Below are positions 9,822 to 25,711 of a stretch of 51,075 bases of DNA, piece by piece. A program made the translations under genes and the position numbers. The notes under the pieces are model-generated. The model worked only from the letters and a program-made list of their open reading frames with translations, searched no databases and was not told where the DNA came from. The first letter of the stretch is position 1; the number at the start of each line of letters is the position of its first letter. Source of the DNA: Caulobacteraceae bacterium (GTDB taxonomy: Bacteria; Pseudomonadota; Alphaproteobacteria; Caulobacterales; Caulobacteraceae); contig CANGCO010000010.1 of assembly GCA_947452365.1 (NCBI GenBank), positions 1-51,075 of the forward strand. Reading direction: 5' to 3'.

Positions 9822-11027
9822 CTAGTTCAGTCCCAAACTTCGGCTGACAAACCAATAAACGCCAAGCCCGCTCAAGACGGTTGTGGCGGCGATAAAGGCC
9901 CCTGAGCGGATCCGGGGGCTGGTGCGGGCAAGCAAAAGGCCAAAAAGGGCAAAGCCGGCTAGGGCCAATAATTGCGCCGCCTCAACCCCGATATTAAAGC
10001 CCAATATGGCGGGCAGGAGCCGGTTTTGCGGCAGGTCAAGCTCCAGCAAGGGACCGGCAAAGCCCGCGCCATGGATTAGGCCAAAGGCGGCGGCTAGGAC
10101 CGGGGCCATGCGCCTTGACCCCGACAGGCCAGAGCCCGGGGCGCAGGCTGCGAAAAGCGCCGCCCCAACAAAAACGGGCCAGGGGGGCGGGCCGAGCTTC
10201 AAGACCGTGGCGGTCAATGGAATCAGCAAGATCGCACCCGCCCCGATCAGGCTTAATCGCCGACTCGCCCCATAGCGCGCGGCCAAGGCCTCGCCCGCTG
10301 CGAACACGACGGTAAAGCCAATCAAGGCCTCAATGGCGGAATACGCGGGTTGCAGCGCCCCGATCGTAACCAGGGCTAGGGTGAGGCTATGGCCCAGGGT
10401 AAAGCCGGTGGCTGCACCAATCGCCAGCAGCGGGCGTCCGGCCAAAAGGGTTAGGGCCAACAAAAAGGCCAGATGGTCCGGGCCTGATAGGACATGGATC
10501 AGGCCCAGCCGCATAAAGTCAAACAGGCTAGACGGCTGTATCTTGGCCGGGCCACCGACCAAGACGGTGCGGTGACCTTGCGACAAAACGGTCTCACTGA
10601 CCTGGCCGTTGGGGGCTAGGACGCGGGCATAATGCACATGGCTAAACGACACCGCGCCAAACACGCCGATGGTCAGCGTGGCGGGCACCTGGGCCAGAGC
10701 CCTTGGGCAGGTCAGGATGATTTCGCTGCGCAATTGGCCAATGGCTGCGTTTAAGGGGCGCACCAGATCGCGGTGGCAGTCAAGCCTGCCCTGCTTGGCA
10801 CTGACCGTGGTCAGGACCTGTCCCGCCAATAGGCCTTGCAGGTCCTGAGTCTGGGCTGGGTCGGTGATCAGTTGGGTGGCGCGCAAGGCATCGACCTGAA
10901 CCACCCCGATCAGTTTTTGGTCCTGCACACGCCAACTGGAATAGGACTCGCTGCGCGAATGGGCATTGGCCAAGGCGGGCATGGCTAGGGCCAGCAACAG
11001 GGTCCAGAGCTTGACCCAGCCTGTCAT
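9822..11027 (-). CDS. HupE/UreJ_2-family membrane protein
   Basis: A 401-residue protein with a signal peptide (about 1-22, ALANAHS), a periplasmic beta-rich part (about 25-160) and a membrane part with some seven helices. The membrane part carries HupE/UreJ-type motifs: GLIHVLSGPDHLAFLLAL (175-192), FTLGHSLTLALV (209-220) and FGLIHGAGFAGPL (about 313). HupE and UreJ proteins are linked to nickel or cobalt uptake, and the His/Asp in these motifs are the presumed metal ligands. No hydrogenase or urease genes are present here. The start ATG overlaps the stop of the PpiC gene (ATGA at 11024-11027), so translation is probably coupled. The cargo is unknown; a metal cofactor for the DUF3604 protein of the same operon is a plausible inference. 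Confidence 0.85.
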   Translation of the reverse strand: MTGWVKLWTLLLALAMPALANAHSRSESYSSWRVQDQKLIGVVQVDALRATQLITDPAQTQDLQGLLAGQVLTTVSAKQGRLDCHRDLVRPLNAAIGQLRSEIILTCPRALAQVPATLTIGVFGAVSFSHVHYARVLAPNGQVSETVLSQGHRTVLVGGPAKIQPSSLFDFMRLGLIHVLSGPDHLAFLLALTLLAGRPLLAIGAATGFTLGHSLTLALVTIGALQPAYSAIEALIGFTVVFAAGEALAARYGASRRLSLIGAGAILLIPLTATVLKLGPPPWPVFVGAALFAACAPGSGLSGSRRMAPVLAAAFGLIHGAGFAGPLLELDLPQNRLLPAILGFNIGVEAAQLLALAGFALFGLLLARTSPRIRSGAFIAATTVLSGLGVYWFVSRSLGLN

Positions 11028-11914
11028 GGGGCGACGGGCCTTGGCGCATCTGCGGCCAGCTTGATCTTGGCCGTCTTGCGCAGATCGAGCAAATAGGTAT
11101 CCAGCGCCTTTGCTTGGTTATCGCGCCGCCATTCCTCGGCCACCGTATCGCGGACGCGATCAAAGTCTGGTCGCTCGCCCATCTGGCGCGCCATCAGATA
11201 GACAAACACCACATGGTCATCGGCCTTGAGCGGGCCAGCCACCTGACCGGGTTCTAGGCCAAGGGCGGCATCGCGCACTGTGGGGCCGGCATAGTCGGCC
11301 ACCTTGGCCACGGGTAAAAAGCCTTCGGGGATAATCATGCGGTCGGCATTGGCCGCTGTCATGGCCGCCTCATAACCGCCGCCTTGGCGAAGGGCCTGGC
11401 GCGCGGCATCAATTCGGGTCTGCGCATTGGCCGGAAGGGTTGCGGCGCGTAAGCTTAGGCGCGCTGTGCGGGTAAAGCGTTCGGGGCGCTGATCATAATA
11501 GGTGCGCAGTTGGGCAGCACTGGGTTCGCGGCCCGCAGCCTCGGCGGCGGCAAACTGGATCATGGCATCGACTAGGGCCTTGCGCACCGAGCCTTCAGAC
11601 TGGGCAAGCCCCAGCTCCTGACCGCGTTGTACCAGCAATTCCTCATCAATCAGGCGGCTCAAGGCCATGGCCTTATCGGCAGGCGTCAAGGGGTTGCGCT
11701 TGTCCGCGGTTAGGCCCTCGATCGCACTGTCAAAGGTCTGGCGGCTGATCAGCACCGTCCCAACCCGCGCCACGGCACCGGCTGGCAAGGGCCCGGTCTT
11801 GAGCGGCCCCAGCGCTGCAAAGGCCGCTAGCCCCAGACCCGCAACAACCCCACCAATATAAAGCCGCTTGGCCCAAACCCCGAGGGCTTGGGGCTTGGCA
11901 CTGAAATCCTCCAC
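11024..11914 (-). CDS. Membrane-anchored peptidyl-prolyl cis-trans isomerase (PpiC/SurA-like)
   Basis: A 296-residue parvulin-type protein: short cytoplasmic tail, one membrane helix (about 17-37), then a SurA-like N-terminal helical region (VARVGTVLISRQTFDSAI, about 48-65, and the SRLIDEELLVQRG helix near 86-98), and a rotamase region at about 140-250 (motif ALGLEPGQVAGPL). It would face the periplasm and help fold exported proteins. The start is GTG at 11914, three bases after the DUF3604 stop, with an AAAGG ribosome site that lies inside the end of that gene. Its TGA stop overlaps the next ATG. The tight packing implies a chaperone dedicated to one or both neighbours, but this is inference. 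Confidence 0.85.
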   Translation of the reverse strand: MEDFSAKPQALGVWAKRLYIGGVVAGLGLAAFAALGPLKTGPLPAGAVARVGTVLISRQTFDSAIEGLTADKRNPLTPADKAMALSRLIDEELLVQRGQELGLAQSEGSVRKALVDAMIQFAAAEAAGREPSAAQLRTYYDQRPERFTRTARLSLRAATLPANAQTRIDAARQALRQGGGYEAAMTAANADRMIIPEGFLPVAKVADYAGPTVRDAALGLEPGQVAGPLKADDHVVFVYLMARQMGERPDFDRVRDTVAEEWRRDNQAKALDTYLLDLRKTAKIKLAADAPRPVAP

Positions 11915-11917
11915 GCC

Positions 11918-14164
11918 CTAGCCTTTTGGGATGTCGAGATAGATGGGCGAAGACCAGGCGCGGGGCTCAGCGGGCTTGAGGCAATCGCTCTTGGCGCTGC
12001 GATAATCGCCATAGCACATATGCACCTTGAGGCACTGGCCCTTGGCATCACGCTCGCAATTGAGCTGGCCGCCATTGATCACGGGTTCTGGCTCCTGAAT
12101 TGCCCGGACATAATAAAGTGTGTCGCGGCGCAGGCGGGCAAATTCCGGATCGGAGAAGCGGAAGTTGCAACCATTAGCGTCGGGCTTGCAGTGATGCACG
12201 ATCAGGGAATCCTTGATCAGGCCGCCAACGGGCTCACCCGGACGCGCTTGTGGCTGGATGCGGATGACCTCGATGCGGGTGATCAGGCTGCGCGTATCAG
12301 ACGGATTGAAACATTCGCCCGAACACAGGGTCTTGAGCCGCTTGGCATCCATACCGGCACTGGAAAAGTTCGGGCAGCCGGGCTTTTGTTTCAGTGCGCC
12401 GACGGCTCGGACCTCAAAGGTCGGGGCCTTGTCCGTCTTTATGATTGAACCCATGGGCAGGCGCTGGCCCGTGGCGGTATCGATCTTGTCGAACCACAAC
12501 ATGATCCTTTGGCCAGACGTGGCATAGACTTCGCGGCGTTGCAGGGCCTGCCAGATGGCGTGGCGGTCACGCGATGGCGCATGCACAGCGGCCAGGCCGC
12601 CGGTCAAGAAGAAGGAGGTCTGACGCTCAAACTCGGTCAATTGGAAACCTGCCTGTTTGAACAGTTCGGACTGGGCCATTGGATGGGCCTCGGGGTCCTT
12701 TTCTTGCGGCTTGCCGATCAAGAGGCTGCGCCAGCGTTCGCTGATTGGGCCAGACGATTCTGTGTTTTTGTGACGGTCATTTTGCTTATAGCCGGTACCG
12801 GGCCGGGCATGGTGATTGTCAGACGAGCCGATAAAGCCCCAGCGGAACCGCGCTGGATTATTCGGGGTTTCATCAAACCGAGAGATGGCTAGGCCATATT
12901 GTACCGATGTTTGCGGACGGTGGTTAAAGGGTGGCAAGAAACAGTCATTGCACTGACCGGAATCGAGCCAATCTTCTTGGGTCTCGCCCTTGATTGCGAG
13001 GTGGCCGGCAACGCCCATATTGGCATAGGCATTGCGGGCAACGGCGGCGCGGCGATCGCATTCGGCCTTGCCAAGCCCCGCATTGGTACAGCGCTCTTGG
13101 ATGATCTGGCCGGCGCGCCAGCAACTGGGCAGATAGCCTTGGCTTGGCTCAGGGCAGGTGGCGGTCTTGCCGTCTGCATTGATCTTGATGTCGCGCCAAT
13201 CGCGATATTCTTCGGAATTGCCGTGGCCAGAATAGACCTCGATCAGGCTAAAGCGCGAAGGATCGTCCTTGGGATTGAGCGCCTTGTCCCAGCTGGTCCC
13301 AGGCGGGGTGTAAAAGCCCCAAGACGAGCCATGCGGAATGATCAGGGGATGGACATTTTGCTGATCGAGCCTGCGCACCAGTTCGCCCGGCGTCGAGGCC
13401 TCTTCAAAACAATCTGAGCTTAGCTTGTTTGACGGCGTGGCCGGGTCGCACGACCGTACCTGTTGGATTTCTTTGATAAAGTGGTTGAAATCCAGATAGG
13501 TTTGGGCGTGGTCGGCATCTTCCAGCACCACGCCGGGTGGCAGGCCGCGGGCCTTGGTGCGCAGGGCCTGGGTGGTGGCACCGCCAGAGGCGATCGGGCG
13601 CGCGGCTAGGCCCTCGTCAGCAAGGCCTTCAAAAATCACATTCTTGTGGCCGTAATGTTCGGCGGGCGTACGGCCAACCTGGGTCCATTCAAAGCCAATA
13701 AAGGACACCATGTCGGGATTGATATCGCCCCCGGCCACGGCCTGACACTGGCGCATGGCCTCCTTGGTCCGCTTCCAGCGCAGCGGCGTTGAGGCCTCGG
13801 CATGGTCGGTAATGGCCCAAAAATCGAGCGAGGAACAAAACCGCGCAAAATCGCAGGCATCCGCGACAGGGTGCGTGCCGGTGCCGCCATTGAGCGGCAG
13901 GCTGAACTGGAAGGCATCGGTGGAATAGGTGGTATGGACATGCAGGTCGCCAAACAGGATCTGTTTGGCTTGCGGACCGGCGGCTAGGGATTGTTGCTCG
14001 CTAGTGCGGGCCGCCAGCATCGCGTCCGGCAAACGCTTGCCATGGATGGTGCCTGCATCGCGCTCAATGCCGCCCCAGCCGTGGCTAACGCCATAAAAAG
14101 CCAAGGCCGCAAGCGCAAATACGCCCAAGAGACTGGCCAAAACAATCCCGGCAATCCGTTTCAT
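11918..14164 (-). CDS. DUF3604 domain protein (PHP-like predicted metal-dependent phosphoesterase)
   Basis: A 748-residue protein with an N-terminal signal/anchor helix (about 4-26) followed by one large DUF3604 domain. PHP-type metal-ligand motifs are visible: FGDLHVHTTYSTDAF (71-85, DLHVH at 73-77), ITDHAE (118-123), IPHGSSWGF (about 275-283) and GSSDNHHARPG (about 468-478). DUF3604 proteins are common in marine and freshwater bacteria and have no established substrate. Many Cys residues (for example CDFARFC, CNDCFLPP) suggest disulfides, fitting a periplasmic site. The ATG at 14164 has GAGG about 7 bases upstream. It leads a three-gene operon with the PpiC isomerase and HupE-like protein. 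Hydrolytic activity is a family-level guess from the PHP motifs. Confidence 0.85.
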   Translation of the reverse strand: MKRIAGIVLASLLGVFALAALAFYGVSHGWGGIERDAGTIHGKRLPDAMLAARTSEQQSLAAGPQAKQILFGDLHVHTTYSTDAFQFSLPLNGGTGTHPVADACDFARFCSSLDFWAITDHAEASTPLRWKRTKEAMRQCQAVAGGDINPDMVSFIGFEWTQVGRTPAEHYGHKNVIFEGLADEGLAARPIASGGATTQALRTKARGLPPGVVLEDADHAQTYLDFNHFIKEIQQVRSCDPATPSNKLSSDCFEEASTPGELVRRLDQQNVHPLIIPHGSSWGFYTPPGTSWDKALNPKDDPSRFSLIEVYSGHGNSEEYRDWRDIKINADGKTATCPEPSQGYLPSCWRAGQIIQERCTNAGLGKAECDRRAAVARNAYANMGVAGHLAIKGETQEDWLDSGQCNDCFLPPFNHRPQTSVQYGLAISRFDETPNNPARFRWGFIGSSDNHHARPGTGYKQNDRHKNTESSGPISERWRSLLIGKPQEKDPEAHPMAQSELFKQAGFQLTEFERQTSFFLTGGLAAVHAPSRDRHAIWQALQRREVYATSGQRIMLWFDKIDTATGQRLPMGSIIKTDKAPTFEVRAVGALKQKPGCPNFSSAGMDAKRLKTLCSGECFNPSDTRSLITRIEVIRIQPQARPGEPVGGLIKDSLIVHHCKPDANGCNFRFSDPEFARLRRDTLYYVRAIQEPEPVINGGQLNCERDAKGQCLKVHMCYGDYRSAKSDCLKPAEPRAWSSPIYLDIPKG

Positions 14165-14250
14165 AGTCCGCCCTCAAGTCCGTTTCCCTGTCGTCTTGTC
14201 TAGCTCAAGCGGCCGCAAGATCTGTCTAATGGCATGCTTCAGGACAAATC

Positions 14251-14282
14251 CCGCCTCGTCAAGCGGGCTGATGACGAGGCGG
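14251..14282 (-). terminator. Stem-loop after the sulfate-binding protein gene
   Basis: A perfect 10-base inverted repeat (CCGCCTCGTC at 14251-14260 and GACGAGGCGG at 14273-14282) with a 12-base loop. It lies 15 bases downstream of the minus-strand stop at 14297, and on that strand the stem is followed by GGATTTGTCC, a weak T-rich tail. It is best read as the intrinsic or structure-assisted terminator of the porin-sbp unit, and would also insulate the DUF3604 promoter beyond it. Confidence 0.7.
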
Positions 14283-14296
14283 TGAGGTTTGCCAGC

Positions 14297-15352
14297 CTAG
14301 CTGGGCCGGTAAATCCGGTCGAACAGGCCGCCATCGGCAAAATGGGTGGCCTGCGCCTTTTGCCAGCCACCAAAGGTCTCGGCGACCGTGACCAGCGGCA
14401 GCTTGGCGAACTTGTTGCCATATTTGGCCAGGGCTTCTGGGTTGCGCGGCCGATAATGGTTCTTGCCAATCAGGTCCTGGGCGCGGGGGCTGTAAAGAAA
14501 ATTCAGATAGCCCTCTGCAATCGTGCGGGTCTTGTGGCGATCCACGACCTTGTCGATCAGGGCAACCGGGGGCTCGGCCAGTATGGACAGGCTGGGCACA
14601 ACAATCTCAAACTGGCCGCGGCCAAGCTCGTCTAGGGCCAAAAAGGCCTCATTTTCCCAGGTGATCAAGACATCGCCAATGCCGCGTTGAACAAAGGTCG
14701 TAGTCGAGCCGCGCGCGCCAGTATCGAGCACGGGGACTTGTTTATAAAGCTTTTCCAAAAAGGCTTGGGCGGTTCCAGCATTGCCGCCGGGCTGCTTAAG
14801 CGCCCAGGCCCAGGCCGCTAGATAGTTCCAGCGTGCGCCGCCAGAGGTCTTGGGATTGGGGGTAATCACATCAATACCCGGACGCACCAGATCGCCCCAG
14901 TCGCGGATCTTCCAAGGATTGCCCTTGCGCACCAAGAACACGATGGTTGAGGTATAGGGGCAGGAATTATTGGGCAGGCGCGATTGCCAATTGGCGGGCA
15001 AGAGCTTGCCCTTTTGCGCGATCTCATCAATATCATAGGCAAGGGCTAGGGTCACGATATCGGCCTGCAGGCCGTCGATCACGGCCCGGGCCTGCTTGCC
15101 AGAGCCGCCATGGCTTTGATTGATCAAGAGGGCCTGACCAACCTTGTCCTTCCAATAGGCGGCAAAGGCGGCATTGATGTCCTTATAAAGCTCACGCGTC
15201 GGGTCATAACTGACATTGAGCAAGGTTACGGCCTTGGGCGCGGCGGCGGCGGCCGAGCTCGTAATCAGGGCCGGAGCGGCGAGGGCTGCGCCCACACCGG
15301 CCGCGCCGATCAGAAGGCTACGGCGGGAAGGGGCTTGGATGGATTTGGTCAT
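14297..15352 (-). CDS. sbp: Periplasmic sulfate-binding protein, orphan, with Tat-type signal
   Basis: A 351-residue sulfate/thiosulfate ABC-transporter solute-binding protein. The mature part opens with the family hallmark [17 protein letters not shown] and carries the [10 protein letters not shown] anion-binding loop. The signal peptide contains [11 protein letters not shown] with twin arginines at residues 10-11, so Tat export is likely. The ATG at 15352 has an AAGGGA site 9 bases upstream. No cysTWA permease or ATPase genes are in the window, so it either serves a transporter encoded elsewhere or has another job. It follows an OprP-type porin by 30 bases on the same strand, facing away from phoR, which hints at control by phosphate and a role in oxyanion capture; this last point is inference. 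Confidence 0.85.
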
Positions 15353-15382
15353 ACTGGCGTGTCCCTTAAGGTGAGTGTCTGA

Positions 15383-16966
15383 CTAGAAGGCAATCTGGGT
15401 GCGAAGGGCAGTTGCCTGAAATTTTTGGCCGATCTGACGTCCAGCGGCGGGCGTGAGGGCACCGGCGCCAAAGGCTGTACCCCCTGGCGACAAACGGTCC
15501 ACATCCACGTCTTGATACTGGAGCATGATGCGCGTTACGGGATTAAGATACCAATTGACCCCCGCCGTCCAGATGGTCTGCTCACCGCCGCGGACACTAT
15601 CGCTTGGTCCCGCCAAGCCGGCGCTGCCGGCGTGCCAGTTTAGATCGACGGTCGAATAGCGCGCACCCAGTTCCCATGCGCCCCATTGGTTCTTGTTGGG
15701 ATCAAACGGCTTGTCGATCTTGGGCCCGTCAAAGCCAGCGGTTTGCGCATTGTAACGCCTAGCCTCGCCGGTCAGGACCCAACTGCCTTGAACATACCAG
15801 CCGGAAAACTCAGGATTGGACAGGGCCGATAGGCGCCGATCTAGGCGGATGGTCTCATATTCACCTTGAATATAGAGGTTCTTGCTTTGCGCCGCCAATT
15901 CCAGCCCATAGGTGGTCAGGCCATCGGCATCAATATTGCCTGTATCAATCAGTCGTGTGCCATCGACCCTAAGTTCGGGCCGGTCCCGCAGGCGCAGGCC
16001 ATAGCGGGCACTGGTCGCGTCGGGGCCGTTATCGGCTGGCGTCAGGACCACAGTCGAATTGACCCCAATATGCACCAGCCAGTCATAGCCATGTAGTGGC
16101 GTGGCCGCGAGGCGGCCGACAAAGGCCAGTTGTTCGTCAAAGGGATTGGTTGTGCTTAGATTGCCGACGGTCTGGCCGGTAATCGCGCCCGAGGCAAACC
16201 AGTGGTCGCCATTGGCATAGACCGCTGCCGCGGACCGTCCGTCACCACCGCCAATGGCGCGGACGATTTCTGCAGCAGAGCCGCGCTCTAGAAACAGTGA
16301 GCTATTGGTCGAGCCAGCGTCCTCAAGGCCGGTTGGCGGCGCGAATGCACCGACGCGGAACCGAAACGGCTTGATACCGGAATATTGCACCCAAAGGTCC
16401 TGGACGCGGCCGCCATCTTCGCTGCCAGAGCCGCCAAATTCATAGATCAGACTATAGTCAAAGTCCTTAAAGGCCTTGCCCTCAACGCCAATCCGCGCGC
16501 GGCGAAAATTGGTGCCGCTGTTCAGATCGCGCGCGCGTCCAGCCTCGGTTGCGTCGGCGAATGAGCCGCGGCGAAAATCATTGGCGAGAGGTCCTGCAGG
16601 GTCTTGGGCAATATTAGCCGCATCAAAATGAACGACGCCGCGCAGCGAGGCCGAAAACTGACCATCCGCCGTGGTTAGAGTCGGGCGCGCATTGATCAGG
16701 GTGACCTTGGTCTCGTCTTGGGCGGTGCGGACATCGCGCAGTCCCTTTGTCGTCGAGCTCTTAAGGTCCTGGATCTGAGCCGCGAGTTGGGCGACCTGGG
16801 CCTCGAGTTGGGCGATGCGGTCACTGGCCTCGGCCTGTGGTCCGGCCGGATCGGTTTGGGCCAGCGCATGCGCGCTGACGCCGCTGAGCAAGACGGCGAG
16901 CATCATGGCCCAGGCACGGCCTGATGATAGCGGGCCTTGCGCTTGATGGGGTGGGTTACGGTTCAT
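15383..16966 (-). CDS. OprP/OprO-type phosphate-selective porin
   Basis: A 527-residue outer-membrane porin. A signal peptide (about 15-37, ending SAHALAQ) is followed by a short coiled coil (RIAQLEAQVAQLAAQIQDLK, about 49-68) typical of trimeric OprP-like porins. Then comes a 16-strand-type beta barrel with segments such as NFRRARIGVEGKAFKDFDYS, and a final aromatic residue (TQIAF). The ATG at 16966 is preceded by GAGGA at good spacing; the longer open frame back to 17014 lacks family similarity. It leads the unit with the sulfate-binding protein and is divergent from phoR. OprP homologues take up phosphate or pyrophosphate under phosphate limitation, which fits its neighbours. Confidence 0.88.
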   Translation of the reverse strand: MNRNPPHQAQGPLSSGRAWAMMLAVLLSGVSAHALAQTDPAGPQAEASDRIAQLEAQVAQLAAQIQDLKSSTTKGLRDVRTAQDETKVTLINARPTLTTADGQFSASLRGVVHFDAANIAQDPAGPLANDFRRGSFADATEAGRARDLNSGTNFRRARIGVEGKAFKDFDYSLIYEFGGSGSEDGGRVQDLWVQYSGIKPFRFRVGAFAPPTGLEDAGSTNSSLFLERGSAAEIVRAIGGGDGRSAAAVYANGDHWFASGAITGQTVGNLSTTNPFDEQLAFVGRLAATPLHGYDWLVHIGVNSTVVLTPADNGPDATSARYGLRLRDRPELRVDGTRLIDTGNIDADGLTTYGLELAAQSKNLYIQGEYETIRLDRRLSALSNPEFSGWYVQGSWVLTGEARRYNAQTAGFDGPKIDKPFDPNKNQWGAWELGARYSTVDLNWHAGSAGLAGPSDSVRGGEQTIWTAGVNWYLNPVTRIMLQYQDVDVDRLSPGGTAFGAGALTPAAGRQIGQKFQATALRTQIAF

Positions 16967-17023
16967 GGTGTCCTCGACGGGTCTGGAATAGCCTTGCCAT
17001 TTTATTTCATACAATCCCTACCG

Positions 17024-17029
17024 ATTATA
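17024..17029 (-). promoter_or_regulatory. Candidate -10 element for the porin-sbp unit
   Basis: On the minus strand this reads TATAAT, a perfect sigma-70 -10 hexamer, inside the only AT-rich stretch of the spacer (about 16998-17046). No convincing -35 hexamer sits 16-18 bases upstream, as is common for promoters that depend on an activator such as PhoB. It would give a leader of about 50 bases before the porin ATG. Position only; activity is not shown. Confidence 0.45.
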
Positions 17030-17093
17030 TATGGTATTAAATTGAAGGGTCGATAGGTTTTCTAAAGCTCGGCATTTTGCCGCCTTCACGGCT

Positions 17094-17111
17094 TCGTCAC
17101 ATGTCTGTGGT
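17094..17111 (+). promoter_or_regulatory. Possible PhoB box before phoR
   Basis: TCGTCAC-ATGT-CTGTGGT resembles the Pho-box layout of two CTGTCAT-like heptamers separated by four bases, matching at four and five of seven positions. It lies about 50 bases before the phoR start. The match is modest and could be chance; autoregulation of phoR by PhoB is known in other bacteria. Confidence 0.3.
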
Positions 17112-17163
17112 CTGATAGAATTGATTCGGTCGCCGTCTGGCCGCACCGCTGAAAGTTCCAACC

Positions 17164-18540
17164 ATGGCTATGCCCGCACCTCCATCGCCCTTGCAGCGGC
17201 TAAGCTTGCGGCTATTGGGGCTTGGCTGTGTGGGTGTGTTGGCCTTGCTGATCTTGGCCCTAACCGGCCAGGCCGCGCTTGGGCCAGTCCTGGTAATGTC
17301 GGCCCTGGTCGGCGGCTTGACCGTATGGCTGGCCTTGCCGCCCCGGTCCGGCGCGATCGGGCAGGTAAGCGAAGCCAATAGCGCTTCGGCACGGCCTTCG
17401 CAGCCCATTTCACCACCTTTTGAGACCATTTTACGCAGCTTGCCGGAGCCGGTCATGGTGATTGCTGCGCAAGAAATCGATGATCTTGCCGGGCAAAGAA
17501 TTCATTTTGCGAATGCGGCGGCCAAGGATTTTTTCAAAATCCAGGATGATGGGGCCTTATTGATTACCGCCATCCGCAATCCTGATGTGCTGGAAGTGGT
17601 TGACGAGGCCCTGTTTGGCAACCTCGCGGGCGAGGTGGCCTATGAGTTGGGTGGCGCTCAGGATCGATACTTGCGTGCCTTTGTCCGACCCTTGGGTGCG
17701 GCCCTAGATGGGCGGCGCCTGGCCTTGTTGATGATGCGCGACGAGACCAATGCCCGGCGCAATGAGCGGATGCGCGCCGATTTTCTGGCCAATGCCAGTC
17801 ATGAATTGCGCACGCCCCTGGCCTCATTATCTGGCTTTATCGATACGCTGCGGGGGCATGCGCGCGATGATGCCGCCGCGCGAGACCGGTTCTTGCAGAT
17901 CATGGCCACCCAGGCCGAGCGCATGTCGCGCCTGATTGACGACCTCTTATCGCTCAGCCGCATCGAGCTGAACGAGCATATTGCGCCGGAAGGCAGTGTT
18001 GATCTGTCCCAGGTGGTTGCCGATGTCGTGGATTCTATTGGTCCCCTGCTGGCGGAATCGCAAGTGCAATTGGTCTTGGATGTACCAAGGCCGGGGCTCG
18101 CCATGGCCGTGGGTGACCGCGACCAGATGGTGCAGGTGGCACAAAACCTGATTGATAATGCGGTTAAGTATTCTAGAGGCCGCGGGCCGGTACGGGTGGA
18201 ATGCCTAACCAATCTGACCGGCGAGGCGGCGATCGCCCTGCGCGAGCCAAGGGCCGCACGGTTGGCGTTGCTGACCCCCGATGATGTCAATGACGGGCGC
18301 TATGTGTGTCTAAGGGTGACCGATTCAGGCCCGGGCATTGCGCGTCAATACCTGCCCAGGCTGGCCGAGCGGTTTTATCGCGTTGAGGGTCAAAAAAGCG
18401 GCGAGCGATCGGGCACCGGGCTTGGTCTGGCGATCGTTAAGCACATTATAAATCGGCACCGCGGCGGCTTTGGGGTGGAAAGCCTGGCCGGATCTGGGGC
18501 ATCGTTTGTTGCCTATTTCCCGGTGCAACCCGAGGCCTAG
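17164..18540 (+). CDS. phoR: Phosphate-regulon sensor histidine kinase PhoR
   Basis: A 458-residue membrane histidine kinase. Two hydrophobic helices lie at about 16-58, then a PAS-like region (about 85-200, SLPEPVMVIAA ... HFANAAAKDFF). The dimerisation/phosphoacceptor motif NASHELRTPLA has its His near residue 213, and the ATPase domain carries the N-box NLIDNAVKYS (about 327), the D-box DSGPGIAR (about 386) and a GTGLGLAIV G-box. It phosphorylates PhoB when phosphate is low and is held in check by the PstCAB-PhoU complex encoded just downstream. The start ATG is at 17164; an ATG at 17170 would remove two residues. A likely separate Pho-controlled promoter precedes pstC in the 166-base gap. 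Confidence 0.95.
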   Translation: MAMPAPPSPLQRLSLRLLGLGCVGVLALLILALTGQAALGPVLVMSALVGGLTVWLALPPRSGAIGQVSEANSASARPSQPISPPFETILRSLPEPVMVIAAQEIDDLAGQRIHFANAAAKDFFKIQDDGALLITAIRNPDVLEVVDEALFGNLAGEVAYELGGAQDRYLRAFVRPLGAALDGRRLALLMMRDETNARRNERMRADFLANASHELRTPLASLSGFIDTLRGHARDDAAARDRFLQIMATQAERMSRLIDDLLSLSRIELNEHIAPEGSVDLSQVVADVVDSIGPLLAESQVQLVLDVPRPGLAMAVGDRDQMVQVAQNLIDNAVKYSRGRGPVRVECLTNLTGEAAIALREPRAARLALLTPDDVNDGRYVCLRVTDSGPGIARQYLPRLAERFYRVEGQKSGERSGTGLGLAIVKHIINRHRGGFGVESLAGSGASFVAYFPVQPEA

Positions 18541-18563
18541 GCGGCGTTTCACGCCAAGCGGCC

Positions 18564-18608
18564 GGTGACAAATGCGTCGCCGTAAAAAAACTGTCACCAA
18601 AACGTCTT
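18564..18608 (+). promoter_or_regulatory. Probable PhoB-binding region before pstC
   Basis: CTGTCAC at 18591-18597 is a near-perfect Pho-box half-site, followed after four bases by ACGTCTT (4 of 7). In addition GGTGACA at 18564-18570 is the exact reverse complement of TGTCACC at 18592-18598, making a 7-base inverted repeat with 21 bases between. The A-tract AAAAAAA lies between them. This sits about 100 bases upstream of the pstC start and after the phoR stop, so pstCAB-phoU-phoB probably has its own phosphate-starvation promoter. Confidence 0.5.
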
Positions 18609-18706
18609 AAGCTCATTGCAGTTGCGGTCGATAAGGGCGTGACTCTTATGCTGCGGGGGCGAGTACGCCCCTCGTGCCCTTCAATCCGGACGGACGCCAA
18701 GCTGAC

Positions 18707-20149
18707 ATGTTGATCTGGATCGTATTTTTTGCCCTAGCGGCATTTTCGGGCCTGACCTATTGGCTTGGCCGCCGCAAGGCCTTGGCCTCAGCGGGTGGGT
18801 CTGCTGCCGGTCTGCATTCCTTGCCGAACTATTACGGGACCTATGTTGCCCTTTGGGTGGCTGTGCCAGCGGCCCTACTCTTGTTCTTGTCGGTCTCATT
18901 TGGTGGCCGGTTCGAGCATGCCTTATTGGTCGCCAAGGCGCCTGTGGCCATAACGGGCATGTCGGTTGAGCAAAAGCAACTCTTCTACCGCGACGCCGAG
19001 GCCATGGCCGAGGGCAAACAGGCCAGTGAGGTCATTTATGAAGGCCCGGTCAAGGCGGCGCTAACGCAAAAGTCACTTGAAGCCAAAGGCTATCGCGACA
19101 AGATTCGTATGGGCACATTTGCCCTGATGGGCGTTCTGGCCTTGGCGGGCCTATTGCTCACCTATCCAAGGATCAATGCCAAGTTCTGGGCCCGCAACCG
19201 GGTTGAAAGCTGGATCAGTAATGTCTTGATGATTTGCTCGATTGTGGCTGTGGTCACGACCCTGGGCATTATCTTGTCGCTGGTCTGGGAGAGTGCGCGC
19301 TTTTTTCAGACGGTCTCTCCGGGAGAGTTCCTGCTGGGCACGCATTGGAGCCCGCAAATTGGTATGCGCGATGATCAGGTCGGATCATCCGGCGGCTTTG
19401 GTGCCCTGCCCCTGTTTGCCGGAACCTTTTTGGTCATGTTGATTGCCATGTTGGTGGCGGGCCCGGTTGGCCTGTTCTCGGCGATTTATCTGGCGGAATA
19501 TGCCGGTCCCACCGCGCGCGCGGTCTGTAAGCCCTTGCTCGAGGTTTTGGCTGGGGTGCCGACCGTGGTTTACGGGTTTTTTGCGGCCCTCACGGTTGGG
19601 CCGCTGTTTCGCGAAGGCTTTAACGCCCTTGGCCTGATGTTGATAAATGGCCAGTTTCACGATTTGGGGCTTTATCTCTCTCAGGTGCAAAACCAGATGG
19701 CCTTGGTCGCCGGTGCGGTGATGGGCATTATGCTGATCCCATTTGTGTCCTCCTTGTCCGATGACATTATCAATTCTGTGCCTCAGGCCCTGCGCGATGG
19801 CAGCTATGCCATGGGCGCGACCAAGTCTGAGACGGTCAAGAATGTGGTCCTGCCCGCAGCCCTGCCAGGTATTGCCGGGGCCTTCTTGCTGGCCATCAGT
19901 CGGGCGGTTGGTGAGACCATGATTGTGACCATGGCGGCCGGCCTTCAGGCCAAACTGACCCTTAATCCGCTCGAAACCGTTACGACCGTGACGGTCCAGA
20001 TCGTGACCCTTTTGACCGGCGATCAGGAATTTGACAGCCCCAAGACCTTGTCGGCCTTTGCCCTGGGTTTGACCCTGTTTGTCGTGACGCTCTTATTGAA
20101 CATTATCGCCCTGCGCATCGTTCAGAAGTATCGGGAACAATATGACTGA
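18707..20149 (+). CDS. pstC: Phosphate ABC transporter permease PstC
   Basis: A 480-residue inner-membrane permease of the high-affinity phosphate transporter. Two N-terminal helices (about 2-18 and 46-65) frame a soluble loop, a periplasmic-side stretch follows, and the transporter core has the EAA-type motif SVPQALRDGSYAMGATKSETV. It is longer than the roughly 320-residue enterobacterial PstC because of the extra N-terminal part, as is usual in Caulobacter-like species. I place the start at ATG 18707 (MLIWIVFF) since related proteins begin that way; a GTG at 18674 would add 11 polar residues. Its TGA stop overlaps the pstA start by 8 bases. No pstS gene is nearby. Confidence 0.92.
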   Translation: MLIWIVFFALAAFSGLTYWLGRRKALASAGGSAAGLHSLPNYYGTYVALWVAVPAALLLFLSVSFGGRFEHALLVAKAPVAITGMSVEQKQLFYRDAEAMAEGKQASEVIYEGPVKAALTQKSLEAKGYRDKIRMGTFALMGVLALAGLLLTYPRINAKFWARNRVESWISNVLMICSIVAVVTTLGIILSLVWESARFFQTVSPGEFLLGTHWSPQIGMRDDQVGSSGGFGALPLFAGTFLVMLIAMLVAGPVGLFSAIYLAEYAGPTARAVCKPLLEVLAGVPTVVYGFFAALTVGPLFREGFNALGLMLINGQFHDLGLYLSQVQNQMALVAGAVMGIMLIPFVSSLSDDIINSVPQALRDGSYAMGATKSETVKNVVLPAALPGIAGAFLLAISRAVGETMIVTMAAGLQAKLTLNPLETVTTVTVQIVTLLTGDQEFDSPKTLSAFALGLTLFVVTLLLNIIALRIVQKYREQYD

Positions 20150-21440
20150 GGCCGCCATCCCCGTTTCGGCCGATAAGGCCAAGGCGCAATCTGCCTTCGA
20201 AAAACGCCTCAAGGCGCGCCATGCGACCGAGCAGAGGTTCCGCTTTTATGGCTTGATGGCCATTGTCATTGCCTTGAGCTTTTTGGCCATATTGCTGACG
20301 CGTATTGTCACCCAGGGCGTGTCGACCTTTACCGTGCATTCGGTGGCGATCGAGGTGCCACTCGATCCTGCCCGGATTGATCGTACCAATCTGGAAGGTA
20401 CCAATTTCGATATTATGGTCGCCGATGCGGTCCTCGCCAAGTTGGGCGAGAAGGATGACGATTTCGGCACCAAGTCGGAAAAGGTTAAGGACCTGATCTC
20501 GCCGGATTTTGGCTTCCAATTGCTCAATATGATCAAGGCAAACCCGGCCATTATCGGCAAGACGGTCAGTGTTTCAGGACCCTTGCGGGCCAATGCTGAC
20601 CTTTATTTTAAGGGCGAGATTAAACGCTCTACGCCTGAAGAAGAGCGCAAGCTGGACAATCAGCAGATCGATTGGCTGACCAAACTGAATGCCTCGGGCG
20701 CGGTCAAGACCGGCTTTAATGTCGCCTTCTTTACCAAGTCCGACTCCACTGAGCCCGAACAGGCCGGCGTCTTGGGCGCGGTGGTCGGCTCGGCCATGAT
20801 GCTGATGGTCACCGCCCTTTTGGCTGTGCCGATTGGGGTGATGGCGGCGGTCTATCTGGAAGAGTTTGCGCCCAAGGGCCGCTGGACCGATATTATCGAG
20901 GTCAATATCAATAATTTGGCGGCGGTGCCGTCGATTGTTTATGGCCTGCTTGGACTTGGCTTGTTTATCAATGCGCTGGGTGTGCCGCGGTCCTCGCCCC
21001 TGCTTGGCGGGCTAGTGCTGGCCCTAATGGCCCTGCCCACCGTGATTATTGCGACCCGCTCTTCGCTCAAGGCCGTGCCGCCCTCGATTCGGGAGGCCGC
21101 CCTCGGGGTTGGGGCCTCGCGCAGTCAGGCGGTCTTTCACCATGTCTTGCCGCTAGCCATGCCCGGCGTCATGACCGGCTCGATCCTAGCCCTGGCCCAT
21201 GCCCTGGGCGAGACCGCGCCGCTCTTGATGATTGGCATGGTGTCGTTTGTGCCGGGTGTACCCGCGGCCTTTACCGAGGCCGCAACCGTCCTGCCCGTGC
21301 AGGTCTTTATCTGGGAAAACGCGTCTGAGCGCGCCTTCCACGAACGCACAGCCGCCGCCATCATGGTGCTGCTGGTCTTTATGATCTTGATGAATGCGGT
21401 GGCGATTATTCTGCGCCGCCGGTTTGAGCGCCGGTGGTAG
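20142..21440 (+). CDS. pstA: Phosphate ABC transporter permease PstA with large periplasmic insertion
   Basis: A 432-residue permease, about 130 residues longer than E. coli PstA. The first helix (about 36-57) is followed by a hydrophilic segment of roughly 150 residues (about 60-205, rich in Asp and Lys) before the remaining five helices. The EAA-type loop [28 protein letters not shown] lies in the C-terminal half. The insertion is predicted to be periplasmic, where it could touch PstS; its function is unknown. Translation overlaps pstC by 8 bases. The TAG stop lies 4 bases before the chosen pstB start. Confidence 0.93.
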
Positions 21441-21444
21441 ACCC

Positions 21445-22293
21445 ATGACCACCTACCGTCCCTCCTTGGCAAATTCAGGCAATTCCATGACCTCATCCAT
21501 TCTAGGCCACGCCCATCTTAGCGCCGACAAGGCCGGATCGACCAAGATCCATGCCGATAAGGTCAATGTTTTCTACGGCGAAAAGCAGGCCTTGTTCGAT
21601 GTGTCCTTGGACATTAGCCAAAAGGCTGTGACCTCGTTTATCGGCCCATCGGGCTGTGGCAAATCGACCTTTTTGCGCTGCATCAACCGGATGAATGACA
21701 CCATCCCGATCTGTAAGGTTGAGGGCACGATCGAGATTGATGGCCAAGACATCAATACGCGCAGTATTGACCCGGTGGTCCTGCGCGCCCGGGTTGGCAT
21801 GGTCTTCCAAAAGCCTAATCCTTTCCCAAAATCGATTTATGAAAACGTCGCCTATGGGCCGCGGATCCATGGCTTGGCCACGGGCAAGGATGAGCTCGAT
21901 GCAATTGTAGAATCCTCCCTGCGCCGCGCTGGCCTATGGGACGAGGTCGCCGACCGGCTATTGCAGCCCGGCACCGGCCTTTCGGGTGGTCAGCAGCAGC
22001 GTCTGGTGATCGCCAGGGCGATTGCGGTTGGCCCTGAAGTGATCTTGATGGATGAGCCCTGCTCAGCCCTCGACCCGATCGCGACGGCCAAGATTGAGGA
22101 ATTGATTGACGAGTTGCGCGAACAGTTCTGCATCGTCATTGTCACCCACTCCATGGCCCAAGCCGCGCGGGTTTCACAGCGGACGGCCTTCTTCCATATG
22201 GGCCGTCTGGTCGAGAGTGGGCCAACCGATGAGATCTTCACCAATCCCAAGGATACCCGGACTCAGGACTATATTACGGGCCGGTTTGGCTAG
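21445..22293 (+). CDS. pstB: Phosphate import ATP-binding protein PstB
   Basis: A 282-residue ABC ATPase that powers the PstCA permease. Walker [10 protein letters not shown], the Q-loop [12 protein letters not shown], the signature LSGGQQQR and Walker [14 protein letters not shown] are all intact. The frame is open further upstream into pstA. I take the ATG at 21445, right after the pstA stop; an ATG at 21487 giving 268 residues is also possible and closer to the usual family length. It belongs to the pstCAB-phoU-phoB unit and contributes to phosphate sensing by PhoR through PhoU. Confidence 0.95.
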
Positions 22294-22341
22294 GCCCTGG
22301 GTGGATTTCCCCCTCATTTGTATAGCGAAGGCTGAACGGCG

Positions 22342-23028
22342 ATGACCGAACATACTGTTAAAGCCTATGGCGATGAACTGAACCATCTGACCGCCGAGGT
22401 GGCGCGGATGGGCGGTCTAGTCGAGGCCCAGGTTGCCGATTCCATCGAATGCATCACGCGCCGTGATGTGCCGCTGGCCCAGGGCATTATTGTGCGCGAC
22501 GACAAGCTTGATGTGCTGCAGGCCGAGATTGAGCGCAAATCGATCAAGTTGATCGCCCTGCGCCAGCCTGTGGCCCAGGACCTGCGCCGCACCGTCGCGG
22601 CCATGAAGATTTCGCTCAATCTCGAGCGCTGCGGCGATCTGGCCAAAAACATCGCCAAGCGGGCCTTGGTGATCTCTGAGGCCGAGGCCCTGACCGCTCT
22701 GACCCGCTCGATTGAGCGCATGGGCAATCTCGTCACCGCGCGCCTAAAGGATGTACTCGACGCCTATACCTCATCGAATGTGAACCGCGCCGTTGGCGTC
22801 TGGTGGCGCGATGAAGAGGTGGATGAGCATTATAATAGCCTGTTTCGCGAGCTCTTGACCTATATGATGGGCGATCCGCGTATGATTACCTCCTGCGCCC
22901 ATATGCTGTTTGTCGCCAAAAATCTTGAGCGCATTGGTGACCATGCCACCAATATTGCCGAGATTATCCACTTTGAAATTACAGGCGAAGACATGATCAG
23001 TGAGCGGCCGAAAAATACCGCCCTCTAA
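22342..23028 (+). CDS. phoU: Phosphate-signalling accessory protein PhoU
   Basis: A 228-residue helical protein made of two PhoU repeats. Visible hallmarks are the MGGLVEAQVADSIECI helix, the metal-binding-type DDKLDVLQAEIERK and ERCGDLAKNIAKR segments in repeat one, and the ERIGDHATNIAEI segment in repeat two. PhoU links the Pst transporter to PhoR and suppresses phosphate uptake and Pho-regulon activity when phosphate is plentiful. It lies 48 bases after pstB and 25 bases before the chosen phoB start. Length is normal for the family. Confidence 0.95.
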   Translation: MTEHTVKAYGDELNHLTAEVARMGGLVEAQVADSIECITRRDVPLAQGIIVRDDKLDVLQAEIERKSIKLIALRQPVAQDLRRTVAAMKISLNLERCGDLAKNIAKRALVISEAEALTALTRSIERMGNLVTARLKDVLDAYTSSNVNRAVGVWWRDEEVDEHYNSLFRELLTYMMGDPRMITSCAHMLFVAKNLERIGDHATNIAEIIHFEITGEDMISERPKNTAL

Positions 23029-23053
23029 TCTCGCGCCCGCTCGGAGCCAAGCC

Positions 23054-23743
23054 TTGATCCCTTATGTTCTTGTTGTCGAAGACGAAGATGCCCTAGCCAC
23101 CTTGCTTCAGTATAATCTGGACAAGGAGGGCTATAGCGTGTCGGTGGCAAGCGACGGCGAAGAGGCCCTGATCCAGATCAATGAGAAGCTGCCCGACCTC
23201 ATCGTGCTTGACTGGATGTTGCCCAAGGTGTCGGGCATAGAGGTCTGCCGCCGCCTGCGCAGCCGAGCCGATACGCGCAATGTGCCGATTGTTATGTTGA
23301 CCGCACGCGGGGAAGAAACAGACCGTATTCGCGGCCTCGATACCGGCGCGGATGACTATGTTGTCAAGCCGTTTTCCATGACCGAATTGACCGCCCGCAT
23401 TCGCGCCGTGCTACGCCGCATCCGCCCGGGCCTGGCTGAGGACCGGACTCATCAAGGCGACCTAATCATAGATCGGGTCGCCCACCGGGTTAAACGCGAT
23501 GGGCGCGAAATCCATCTTGGTCCGACCGAGTTTCGCTTGTTGGACTATTTTATGCAGCATCCAGGTCGGGTGTTTAGCCGCGAGCAATTGCTTGATGCGG
23601 TCTGGGGGTCGGATGTGTATGTCGAGGCCCGGACGGTCGATGTGCATGTCGGCCGCCTGCGCAAGGCCCTGAATCTCGAGACCAAGGCCGACCCGATCCG
23701 CACTGTGCGCTCAGCCGGCTATGCGCTGGACATGGATGCCTAG
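23054..23743 (+). CDS. phoB: Phosphate-regulon response regulator PhoB (TTG start)
   Basis: A 229-residue OmpR/PhoB-class response regulator. The receiver domain shows the acidic pair VVEDED (8-12), phosphoacceptor Asp53, Thr83 and Lys105; the winged-helix domain holds PTEFRLLDYFMQHPGRVFSR and the RTVDVHVGRLRKAL recognition region. The open frame begins at GTG 23000 inside phoU, but I choose TTG 23054. It has GGAG seven bases upstream, gives IPYVLVVEDED directly as in related PhoB proteins, and yields the canonical 229-residue length. The TAG stop is built into the stem of the downstream terminator. Confidence 0.93.
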   Translation: MIPYVLVVEDEDALATLLQYNLDKEGYSVSVASDGEEALIQINEKLPDLIVLDWMLPKVSGIEVCRRLRSRADTRNVPIVMLTARGEETDRIRGLDTGADDYVVKPFSMTELTARIRAVLRRIRPGLAEDRTHQGDLIIDRVAHRVKRDGREIHLGPTEFRLLDYFMQHPGRVFSREQLLDAVWGSDVYVEARTVDVHVGRLRKALNLETKADPIRTVRSAGYALDMDA

Positions 23744-23763
23744 GCTGGCGCCTGCCAGCCTAG
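23740..23763 (+). terminator. Terminator hairpin containing the phoB stop codon
   Basis: A perfect 10-base inverted repeat (CTAGGCTGGC and GCCAGCCTAG) with a GCCT loop. The first arm includes the phoB TAG stop. There is no run of T on the plus strand, but the stem is strong and lies between convergent genes, so it probably works for the pst-phoB unit and perhaps for cysNC from the other side. Confidence 0.65.
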
Positions 23764-23792
23764 ATTGCCCGTCTAGATTGCCCGTCTAGATT
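23761..23792. repeat. 13-bp tandem repeat, two and a half copies
   Basis: TAGATTGCCCGTC occurs at 23761-23773 and again exactly at 23774-23786, followed by a partial third copy TAGATTT. The array starts inside the right arm of the phoB hairpin and runs into the minus-strand cysNC stop codon (23786-23788). It fills the entire gap between the two convergent genes. Confidence 0.8.
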
Positions 23793-25711
23793 TCCGGCCC
23801 CTGCCAACCATCCCGAATCAGGCCGCGATCGCGCAGTTTTTGAATGATCAGGTCGGCGGCCTGTTCTGGCGTGGTCTTGGTGGTGTCGATATGGATTTCG
23901 GCGGCATCGGGCGCTTCATACGGGCTGTCAATGCCGGTAAAATTCTTCAAATCGCCGCTGCGGGCCTTTTTGTAGAGCCCCTTCACGTCCCGCGCCTCGG
24001 CGACCGCCAAGGGGGTGTCGATAAAGACTTCTAGGAATTCGGCGCCCTCGACCAGGTCGCGGGCCATTTGCCGCTCGGATCGGAACGGCGAGATGAAGGA
24101 AACGAGGCAGATCAGGCCCGCCTCGACCATAAGCTTTGAGACCTCGGCGACGCGGCGGATGTTTTCCACCCGGTCGGCATCGGTAAAGCCCAGATCGCGG
24201 TTCAGGCCGTGGCGAACATTGTCGCCGTCCAGGGTCGTGGTGTGCCGCCCCATGCCGTAGAGCTGTTTTTCCACCAGATTGGCTATGGTCGACTTGCCAG
24301 AACCCGACAGGCCGGTGAACCACAATATGGCTGGCTTTTGACCCTTAAGGTCGGCGCGGCTGGTCTTGTTTACGTCCAGGGCCTGCCAATGAATATTCTG
24401 CGAGCGGCGCAGGGCAAAATGGATCAGGCCAATGCCAACGGTTGCATTGGTCATGCGGTCGATCAGGATGAAACCGCCGGTATCGACATTGTCCTTATAG
24501 GGATCAAAAGCGATCTGTTGATCAAGACTGATATTGCAAACCCCGATTTCATTCAGGGTCAGGGCCTTGGCCGCCAGATGCTCCAGCGTGTTCACATTGA
24601 CCTTGTATTTCGGCTCAGTGACGGTGGCGGAGACCAGCTTGGCCCCGATTTTCAGCCAATAGGCCCGGCCGGGCAGCAAGGGCTCTTCGGCCATCCAGAT
24701 GATTGTGGTCTCGAACTGGTCGGCGACTTCAGGCGGATTGCCAGAGGCGATTATATCGCCGCGCGAGCAGTCAATCTCGTCTTCTAGGGTCAGGGTGACT
24801 GATTGTCCGGCCACGGCCAGATCAAGGTCGCCATCATAGGTGACAATGCGCGCCACCTTACTTTGCTTGCCCGAGGGCAGAACCCGGATCGTGTCGCCCG
24901 GCCGGACGCTGCCGCTGGCAATCTGGCCTGCAAAGCCGCGGAAATCCAGGTCCGGGCGATTGACCCATTGGACCGGCAGACGCAAGGGCCCCTGTTGGCG
25001 GATCTCCTCGTCCAGCGGCACATTTTCCAAATGCTCAATCAGGACCGGACCATCAAACCATGGGGTCTGATCACTGCGCGAGGCAATATTGTCGCCGCGA
25101 AGGCCAGAGATTGGAATGGCGGTGACATCGTCCAGCCCAACCTGGGCGGCAAAGGCGCGATAGTCGCGCACAATCGTGTCAAATACGGTCTGGTCAAACC
25201 CGACCAGGTCCATCTTATTGACGGCTAGGACCACCTTTTTGATCCCGATCAGGGATACCAGATAGGAGTGGCGGCGGGTCTGGGTGAGTATGCCCTTGCG
25301 CGCATCGACCAGGATAATCGCCAGATCCGCGGTTGAGGCACCTGTGACCATATTGCGGGTATATTGCTCGTGGCCCGGCGTATCGGCGACGATGAATTTG
25401 CGCTTTTCGGTGGAAAAGAACCGATAGGCGACATCAATCGTAATGCCCTGCTCGCGCTCTGCGGCCAGGCCATCGACCAAAAGCGCAAAATCGATTTCGC
25501 CGCCCTGGGTGCCAATGCGCTTGGAATCGGCTTCAAGGGCTGCCATCTGATCTTCAAAGATCATTTTGGAATCATAGAGCAGCCGCCCGATCAAGGTGGA
25601 CTTGCCATCGTCAACACTGCCGCAGGTGATGAAGCGCAGCAGACTCTTGTGCTGATGTTGCAGCAGATAGGCGTCAATATCGCTTTCGATCAGGTCTGAA
25701 ATATGGGCCAT
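23786..25711 (-). CDS. cysNC: Bifunctional sulfate adenylyltransferase subunit 1 / adenylylsulfate kinase (CysN/CysC)
   Basis: A 641-residue fusion of the GTPase subunit of ATP sulfurylase (about 1-440) with APS kinase (about 455-641). GTPase motifs are G1 GSVDDGKS (31-38), G3 DTPGH (110-114) and G4 NKMD (165-168); the kinase has its own P-loop GLSGSGKST near 467. Together with CysD it makes adenylylsulfate from sulfate and ATP, driven by GTP, and then phosphorylates it to PAPS for assimilation or sulfation. The ATG overlaps the cysD stop by one base (TAATG at 25709-25713), indicating coupled translation. Fused CysNC (NodQ-type) is common in alphaproteobacteria. Confidence 0.95.

Follow-up and report, generated by a model that had tools for sequence, protein, structure and literature searches.

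Three adjacent genes of the minus strand form a compact group in a stretch of DNA from a Caulobacteraceae bacterium (GenBank assembly GCA_947452365.1, contig CANGCO010000010.1, positions 1 to 51,075). The whole stretch of 51,075 nucleotides was analysed and is called the window below. The gene at 11918-14164 starts with ATG and encodes a DUF3604 protein of 748 amino acids (aa). It is followed at 11024-11914 by a PpiC/SurA-like gene with a GTG start (296 aa) and at 9822-11027 by a HupE_UreJ_2 gene with an ATG start (401 aa), both on the minus strand. Three bases separate the DUF3604 stop codon from the GTG of the PpiC-like gene, and an ATGA overlap at 11024-11027, also on the minus strand, couples the PpiC-like gene to the HupE gene. 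The layout, with its 3-base gap and ATGA overlap, is as claimed in the original prediction, which a model had made from the sequence alone. The four-base overlap at the PpiC-HupE junction recurs in 33/50 pairs found with DUF3604 genes of the type seen here (window type) and in 13/19 pairs found with canonical DUF3604 genes. The trio is widely conserved, which suggests that the PpiC-like and HupE proteins make or load a hydrolase represented by the DUF3604 protein.

The DUF3604 protein belongs to its Pfam family (PF12228), with a score of 92.1 bits against a gathering cut-off of 20.4. Hydropathy indicates one N-terminal membrane segment at about residues 4-22. The protein contains 20 cysteines, and 18 cysteine columns are kept at a level of at least 97% among 82 aligned relatives. 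The residues D73, H75, H77, D120, H121, E159, H170, H173, H278, H314, D449, and H451 are invariant in all 82, with the reservation that D73, H75, and H77 (the HVH site) lie inside the search pattern by which the aligned loci were found. Candidate metal ligands are H75, H77, D120, H121, E159, H173, H278, H314, D449, and H451. The motifs HxH, DH, E, H, and DxH, which we take to be the PHP series, follow one another in this order in 82/82 window-type relatives, the HxH site again being part of the search pattern. A signal-anchored, PHP-like DUF3604 protein with HVH (H75, H77) and DH (D120, H121) motifs had been predicted; both motifs are present and kept in all 82 relatives.

Similarity to the CehA/McbA metallohydrolases is also seen at the profile level. 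When an 11-sequence CehA/McbA-type profile was used, hhalign gave a probability of 93.7% (E 1.9e-7) against window-type DUF3604 over motifs I-II and 93.1% (E 3.2e-7) against canonical DUF3604 at the last motif. A two-sequence CehA profile was too thin, with probabilities of 6.2% and 80%. The NCBIfam model NF038032 (CehA/McbA) scored 20.9 bits (E 2e-4), below its curated cut-off of 80. By its motifs, then, the DUF3604 protein resembles a PHP/CehA-like hydrolase but falls short of filed family membership. It shares GDLHxHT, ITDH, E, GHxN (window type), and DxH (canonical type) with CehA/McbA and PHP domains, at hhalign E values of about 1e-7. It differs in scoring below the curated cut-off, in its larger inserts, in the 20 cysteines of the window protein, and in its HupE and PpiC partners. 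The predicted metal-dependent exported hydrolase gains support from these motifs and profile similarities. Sequence and profile searches of solved structures returned none that was useful for DUF3604. The window's own genome also encodes, on another contig (G000:C7:11149-12162, L200; G and L numbers are our handles for genomes and loci), a CehA/McbA metallohydrolase that exceeds the curated cut-off with 260 bits.

The window-type proteins form a divergent branch of DUF3604, in which the window protein shares 51-61% identity with seven relatives. The match between window-type and canonical DUF3604 covers almost their full length (hhalign 99.9%, E 1.9e-35, 27% identity), and both have the same partner genes. 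They differ in that the canonical proteins have signal-peptide or lipobox-like starts and 0-4 cysteines after the first motif (20 proteins viewed), whereas the window type is membrane-anchored and cysteine-rich.

The PpiC-like protein matches Rotamase_2 (51.4 bits; cut-off 27) and SurA_N_3 (29.7 bits; cut-off 27.2) in Pfam, and hydropathy gives it one N-terminal membrane segment. Its profile matches include PEB4-like 3rfw (1.8e-7), HP0175, PrsA, and the N-terminal region of SurA. It thus shares a SurA-N-like region and a parvulin domain with the SurA/PrsA/PEB4 chaperones, and the window lineage differs from them in mostly lacking the catalytic histidine positions. The strand-1 histidine and the C-terminal GxH histidine are presumably the catalytic ones. 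In the 51 sequences of the window lineage, the former is not among the eight commonest residues at its position, and the latter is kept in 11/51, as against 19/19 in the canonical lineage. The canonical strand-1 position is His in 11/19 sequences and Gln in 8/19. Judged by eye, the C-terminal histidine may still be present in the window protein. The loss of the strand-1 histidine in the window lineage makes the label "isomerase" doubtful. A parvulin on one membrane helix had been predicted; the family and the single N-terminal segment hold, and an active proline isomerase is not supported, since the catalytic histidines are not conserved in the lineage.

The HupE protein is a clear member of HupE_UreJ_2 (PF13795; 109.8 bits against a cut-off of 24.5). 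It has five membrane segments in its C-terminal half according to hydropathy, and a signal peptide was recognised by eye. The membrane domain carries H178, D184, H185, and H213, and this H/DH/H pattern is kept in nearly all sequences of the three HupE groups compared (window-type, canonical, and those unlinked to DUF3604). The earlier description of a multi-helix HupE/UreJ_2 protein with His/Asp motifs is upheld by the family match and these residues. It had missed what appears, in the structure model (mean predicted local distance difference test score, pLDDT, 80.4), to be a periplasmic domain of a metal-binding type at the N-terminus. The best Foldseek matches of this domain are ZrgA, PA4063, and the Ang-1 structure 9GCE. 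For 9GCE, the Foldseek E value is 2.7e-4, and VIA-align gives a Z of 9.2 and a root-mean-square deviation of 3.2 over 122 aligned residues at 12% identity; ZrgA outranks it with a Z of 12.7. Sequence searches of solved structures found none of use for HupE.

The predicted signal cleavage (...ANA|HSRS, by eye) would make His23 the first mature residue. In the model, His23 aligns with chain residue 1 (His1) of 9GCE, a copper-binding anglerase domain. Mature position 1, as aligned, is His in 57/57 window-type sequences with a residue there, 31/37 canonical sequences, and 49/49 unlinked sequences. All window-type HupE sequences that have residues at positions 130 and 132 (57/57) carry an HxH pair there (H130, H132), which the canonical and unlinked groups do not conserve. 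The modelled fold and the conserved N-terminal histidine support the predicted metal-binding role of HupE. According to the main text of the anglerase paper (PMC12537917), Ang-1 binds Cu with a dissociation constant of 74 nM and Ni with one of 220 nM. The Ang-1 protein and the window protein have in common a signal peptide, a mature N-terminal His, a beta-sandwich domain, and a HupE_UreJ_2 membrane domain; they differ in that identity over the domain is 12% and that the window lineage adds H130 and H132. The neighbours named in the paper are DUF4198, indigoidine A-like, and PfkB, plus unnamed proteins of unknown function, and its main text mentions neither DUF3604 nor an isomerase.

The HupE membrane domain is shared with the nickel permeases of hydrogenase and urease clusters, from which the window protein differs by its extra N-terminal domain and its genomic setting. 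The window's genome, which is 97.75% complete, contains no match to NiFe hydrogenase; for urease alpha, one match of 40 residues was found, and it scores below the cut-off. An accessory role for either enzyme was rejected on these grounds, and the earlier remark that no hydrogenase or urease genes explain the HupE protein holds genome-wide.

The association of the three families was followed through samples of the order, class, and phylum, which share genomes and in which the profile searches scored only the best few first-look candidates (6, 3, or at most 4, depending on the search). In the order sample (150 genomes), DUF3604 is present in 43, and HupE_UreJ_2 lies within 6 kb in 42 of these; two sub-cut-off HupE matches were left out of this count, and split matches were merged by hand. 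HupE is usually found 1.2-1.6 kb downstream of DUF3604 on the same strand. Ten of these genomes, the window's own included, carry window-type DUF3604. In each of the other nine, a PpiC-like match and then a HupE match follow downstream of DUF3604, with G148 being frame-broken and G067 being cut by a contig end. Of the 289 genomes of the class sample, 14 have window-type DUF3604. Window-type HupE is present in 13 of these 14, G201 being the exception, and was seen in no other genome of the sample; the HupE cut (E <= 1e-50) was set after a gap had been seen between 5.9e-55 and 1.3e-33. In four of the 13 genomes (G167, G247, G367, G396), the two genes lie on different contigs. The HupE contig of G247 begins inside the PpiC gene, so adjacency there cannot be judged. 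Canonical DUF3604 occurs in 28 genomes of the class sample and has HupE within 8 kb in 23. Weak, distant PHP-like matches occur in 23 genomes and never near HupE, after removal of G385:C136 as a piece of a window-type gene. In the phylum sample (165 genomes), DUF3604 (E <= 1e-8) is found in 11 genomes, with HupE close by in 10 as read by eye; two of the ten, G458 and G577, hold only DUF3604 remnants, and G540 has no HupE. In G458 (C2, L289 2540-3538), one open reading frame (ORF) joins a DUF3604 start to a HupE end and is apparently the remnant of an in-operon deletion.

Named genomes and plasmids extend the picture. A scan of genome_contigs, from which 80 of 546 confirmed window-type loci were kept, gave 46 strict DUF3604-PpiC-HupE loci, 2 DUF3604-PpiC loci, 4 otherwise arranged, and 28 with DUF3604 alone. 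The partnership occurs in alpha- and gammaproteobacterial records, and titles among the 46 trio loci include Maricaulis maris, Hyphobacterium, Rhizobiaceae, Woeseiaceae, Candidatus Binatia, Bacteriovoracales, and Deltaproteobacteria. One Caulobacteraceae metagenome-assembled genome (L089) contains a 95%-identical copy. Named, culturable carriers of the trio include Maricaulis maris DSM 4734 (L104) and the hosts of Rhizobium and Sinorhizobium plasmids. A canonical DUF3604 protein matches 77 plasmid records, and the window-type protein has no match in the plasmid collection. Thirteen plasmid regions, all picked from annotated records, were read, and 11 contain the trio, with the genes annotated as "DUF3604 domain-containing protein", "peptidylprolyl isomerase", and "HupE/UreJ family protein". 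Nine of the 11 have the order DUF3604-PpiC-HupE (one with an extra gene between the first two), and two have PpiC-HupE-DUF3604. On Sinorhizobium medicae pMl5, both trio junctions are four-base overlaps, and conjugation genes adjoin. Where order or strand varies, PpiC and HupE are still paired: DUF3604 is convergent with them in G171, G158, and G291, divergent in G389, and last in G493 (PpiC-HupE-DUF3604). Conservation of this kind excludes a chance grouping. An isolated or chance cluster was ruled out by co-occurrence, and the level beyond chance that the original prediction had asked of the three families is far exceeded in the order, class, and phylum samples, the named genomes, and the plasmids.

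Several further features were noted around such loci. In L275, L276, L278, L284, and L307, two or three DUF3604 genes stand in a row or close together, and the two of L307 have no annotated PpiC or HupE. Genes for DUF1254/DUF1214, DUF2092, and an AraC-type regulator recur near rhizobial and Roseibium trios (L300, L302, L303, L308, L312), not all in each. Some lineages with DUF3604 alone (L105, L110, L117, L124, L126, L128, L134) have common neighbours, one of them CaiB-type CoA-transferase-like by eye.

The PpiC-like gene tracks DUF3604, not HupE. It adjoins HupE in 38/38 distinct DUF3604-linked loci (19/19 canonical and 20/20 further ones, L269-L288, one being in both; 39 were tested, with G001 counted twice), all of which were chosen for the presence of DUF3604. 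It was found in 0/45 HupE loci from 42 genomes without DUF3604, weak distant PHP-like matches not being counted as DUF3604. Only 3/60 control HupE loci (L243, L253, L268) contain it, and in each case the genome has DUF3604 at another place. These 60 loci, with 61 HupE genes, were hand-picked from 76 HupE matches not near PF12228, with weak and window-type matches mostly left out, and dissimilar PpiC genes could have been missed in them by a profile built from trio members. The Fisher P values computed for such counts take no account of relatedness. Outside these controls, a PpiC-like gene also accompanies window-type HupE in G167 and G396, where HupE is not linked to DUF3604.

Each of the two DUF3604 lineages keeps its own HupE lineage. 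In a midpoint-rooted tree of 161 HupE sequences, all 41 members of one clade (support 1.0) are PpiC-linked, and window-type DUF3604 accompanies none of them. Another clade (support 0.885) has 62 members, of which 60 are PpiC-linked; wherever DUF3604 was found in the loci of this clade, it was window-type. A further PpiC-linked tip belongs to neither clade and is placed among unlinked tips (support 0.354).

These observations can be read, with a confidence slightly below an even chance, as a self-contained module for an extracytoplasmic metallohydrolase, in which the PpiC-like and HupE proteins mature one or several DUF3604 enzymes. The enzyme would be DUF3604, acting as a PHP/CehA-like hydrolase on the outer side of the cytoplasmic membrane, to which it is anchored. 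Its folding would be helped by the PpiC-like protein, a membrane-anchored holdase of the SurA/PrsA type, with proline isomerisation probably not being needed in this lineage. HupE may bind a transition metal by the N-terminal His domain in the periplasm, move it or hand it over, and so load the hydrolase. A single PpiC-HupE pair could work for several DUF3604 paralogues of the same genome. A shared maturation factor would lead one to expect more DUF3604 genes than HupE-PpiC pairs, and such an excess is frequent: in G158 and in G291, four complete DUF3604 copies stand against one HupE match. In a fuller version, offered as a possibility held with more caution, a tethered parvulin-fold holdase that does not isomerise and a metal carrier with an N-terminal His would together make up an assembly line outside the cytoplasm, dedicated to this whole PHP-type family and with one pair to several paralogues. 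What the sequences show directly is the order, linkage, and co-occurrence of the genes, the pairing of lineages, the motifs, and the N-terminal fold of HupE; folding and metal delivery as the purpose, and any direction of transport, metal, or substrate, go beyond this as inference.

A number of findings weigh against this maturation scheme. Among the 28 solitary window-type DUF3604 genes, 22 are followed by more than 1.5 kb of sequence and 6 lie at a contig end; SAR86 (L143, L145) and Myxococcota or Myxococcales (L130, L142) are among their titles. The two DUF3604-PpiC loci without HupE and the four other arrangements belong here, as do two of the 13 plasmid regions, which have no PpiC-HupE pair. 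Both DUF3604 types occur in G201 without any HupE match, and G144 and G540 have DUF3604 without HupE. Taken together, the solitary loci, these three genomes, and the two plasmids indicate that DUF3604 can persist without partners. Conversely, HupE stands beside DUF3604 without a visible PpiC in L123 (a 4-kb contig) and L248 (a control locus with a DUF3604-like ORF), both at a contig start, and the window-type HupE of G367 (L267) has no visible PpiC, with DUF3604 elsewhere in the genome. Position 1 is Asp instead of His in 6/37 canonical HupE sequences. Residues 19-23 of the HupE model, including His23, have pLDDT values below 50, and the DUF3604 model was rejected at a mean pLDDT of 48. The trio flanks show no enrichment of metal genes and no recurrent metal regulators or receptors; these counts drew on 30 of the 46 strictly ordered trios and on 19 canonical loci, proteins longer than 900 aa were skipped, and 101 of 106 and 98 of 107 flank references, respectively, were used. 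Finally, HupE relatives take up nickel, and periplasmic delivery would need the other direction or a hand-over.

The main rival to maturation is metal uptake, which we regard as somewhat unlikely. Here, a ligand or ester hydrolysed by DUF3604 outside the cytoplasm would release a metal, which the N-terminal domain of HupE would capture and HupE would import; the PpiC-like protein would support envelope parts. The nearest folds, ZrgA and PA4063, are zinc-binding proteins of ATP-binding cassette importer operons, which suits such a role, and two single cases point the same way: a CobW-family gene that follows one Rhizobium indicum trio, and TonB/ExbBD genes that precede one Ruegeria trio. The lack of recurring metal regulators or receptors beside the trio tells against it, as do the DUF3604 copies in excess of HupE. 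The absence of the PpiC-like gene from all 45 HupE loci in DUF3604-free genomes is better accommodated by a client-specific helper than by general uptake. Maturation also fits somewhat better than uptake with a one-way dependence, in which the client sometimes lacks the pair and several copies may share one pair. In the Rhizobium indicum case (L312 5888-8505, on a plasmid with the order PpiC-HupE-DUF3604), a gene for a metallo-beta-lactamase fold also follows the trio, together with the CobW-family GTPase gene.

It seems improbable that the trio is a catabolic module, with DUF3604 splitting an organic compound outside the membrane and HupE carrying a product other than a metal. Such a module would agree with the reported cleavage of carbamates by CehA relatives and with the flanks, where major facilitator superfamily transporters (5/98), TonB receptors (3/98), and esterase-type families occur around canonical trios and acyl-CoA dehydrogenases (8/101) around window-type trios. 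These counts are low, however, and partly probably reflect lineage synteny, and no pathway emerged from the flank families (101 + 98 references). The HupE membrane domain moreover keeps H/DH/H in nearly all sequences, as expected of a metal permease. It is very improbable that the genes are neighbours by common descent or through a mobile cassette, with no joint function. Trios do occur on plasmids, one of them beside conjugation genes, but the linkage survives changes of order and strand, presence matches even with the genes on different contigs, and PpiC tracks DUF3604. A defence system (no PADLOC match) and a phage origin (no match of a canonical DUF3604 protein in the phage collection, with viral_contigs outside this search) were considered and rejected.

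The three families are known, and their partnership is visible in annotated plasmids. What would be new, judged from sequence, is that an extracytoplasmic metalloenzyme has an accessory pair of its own. The literature searched, the scope of which excluded subscription journals, supplements, and databases such as STRING, contained no description of the trio. In the same literature, DUF3604 appears in one paper only, as a table entry for a transposon insertion, and no assigned substrate was found. The role of HupE_UreJ_2 outside nickel-enzyme clusters and the substrate of DUF3604 can now be joined in one testable question, namely, whether the pair puts metal into an extracytoplasmic PHP hydrolase. 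If this is true, a parvulin-fold protein has been kept for one client after the loss of its catalytic residues.

Within the window, kup lies downstream of the trio on the same strand, and genes for a sulfate-binding protein and a porin lie upstream. A terminator-like stem (z = -3.46) at 14236-14296 on the minus strand forms a hairpin after the sulfate-binding-protein gene and before the trio. As this hairpin stands between them, the trio probably starts its own transcript. A joint role with kup, the sulfate-binding protein, or the porin was rejected: tblastn found none of them in the 6-20 kb around the trios of nine relatives, and the hairpin splits off the upstream gene. At 14297-26625, the gene for the sulfate-binding protein (491 bits to NF008022) and the Porin_O_P gene are divergent from genes for a histidine kinase and a PstC-like permease. 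Further ORFs there have PhoU- and PhoB-like starts, and no sulfate permease adjoins the gene for the sulfate-binding protein, both judged by eye. At 28324-33795 lies a mutagenesis-type cassette of three ORFs: one occupies the ImuA position (judged by eye), one is ImuB-like and of the IMS family, and one is DnaE2-like, of the DNA polymerase III alpha type, with a PHP domain of its own.

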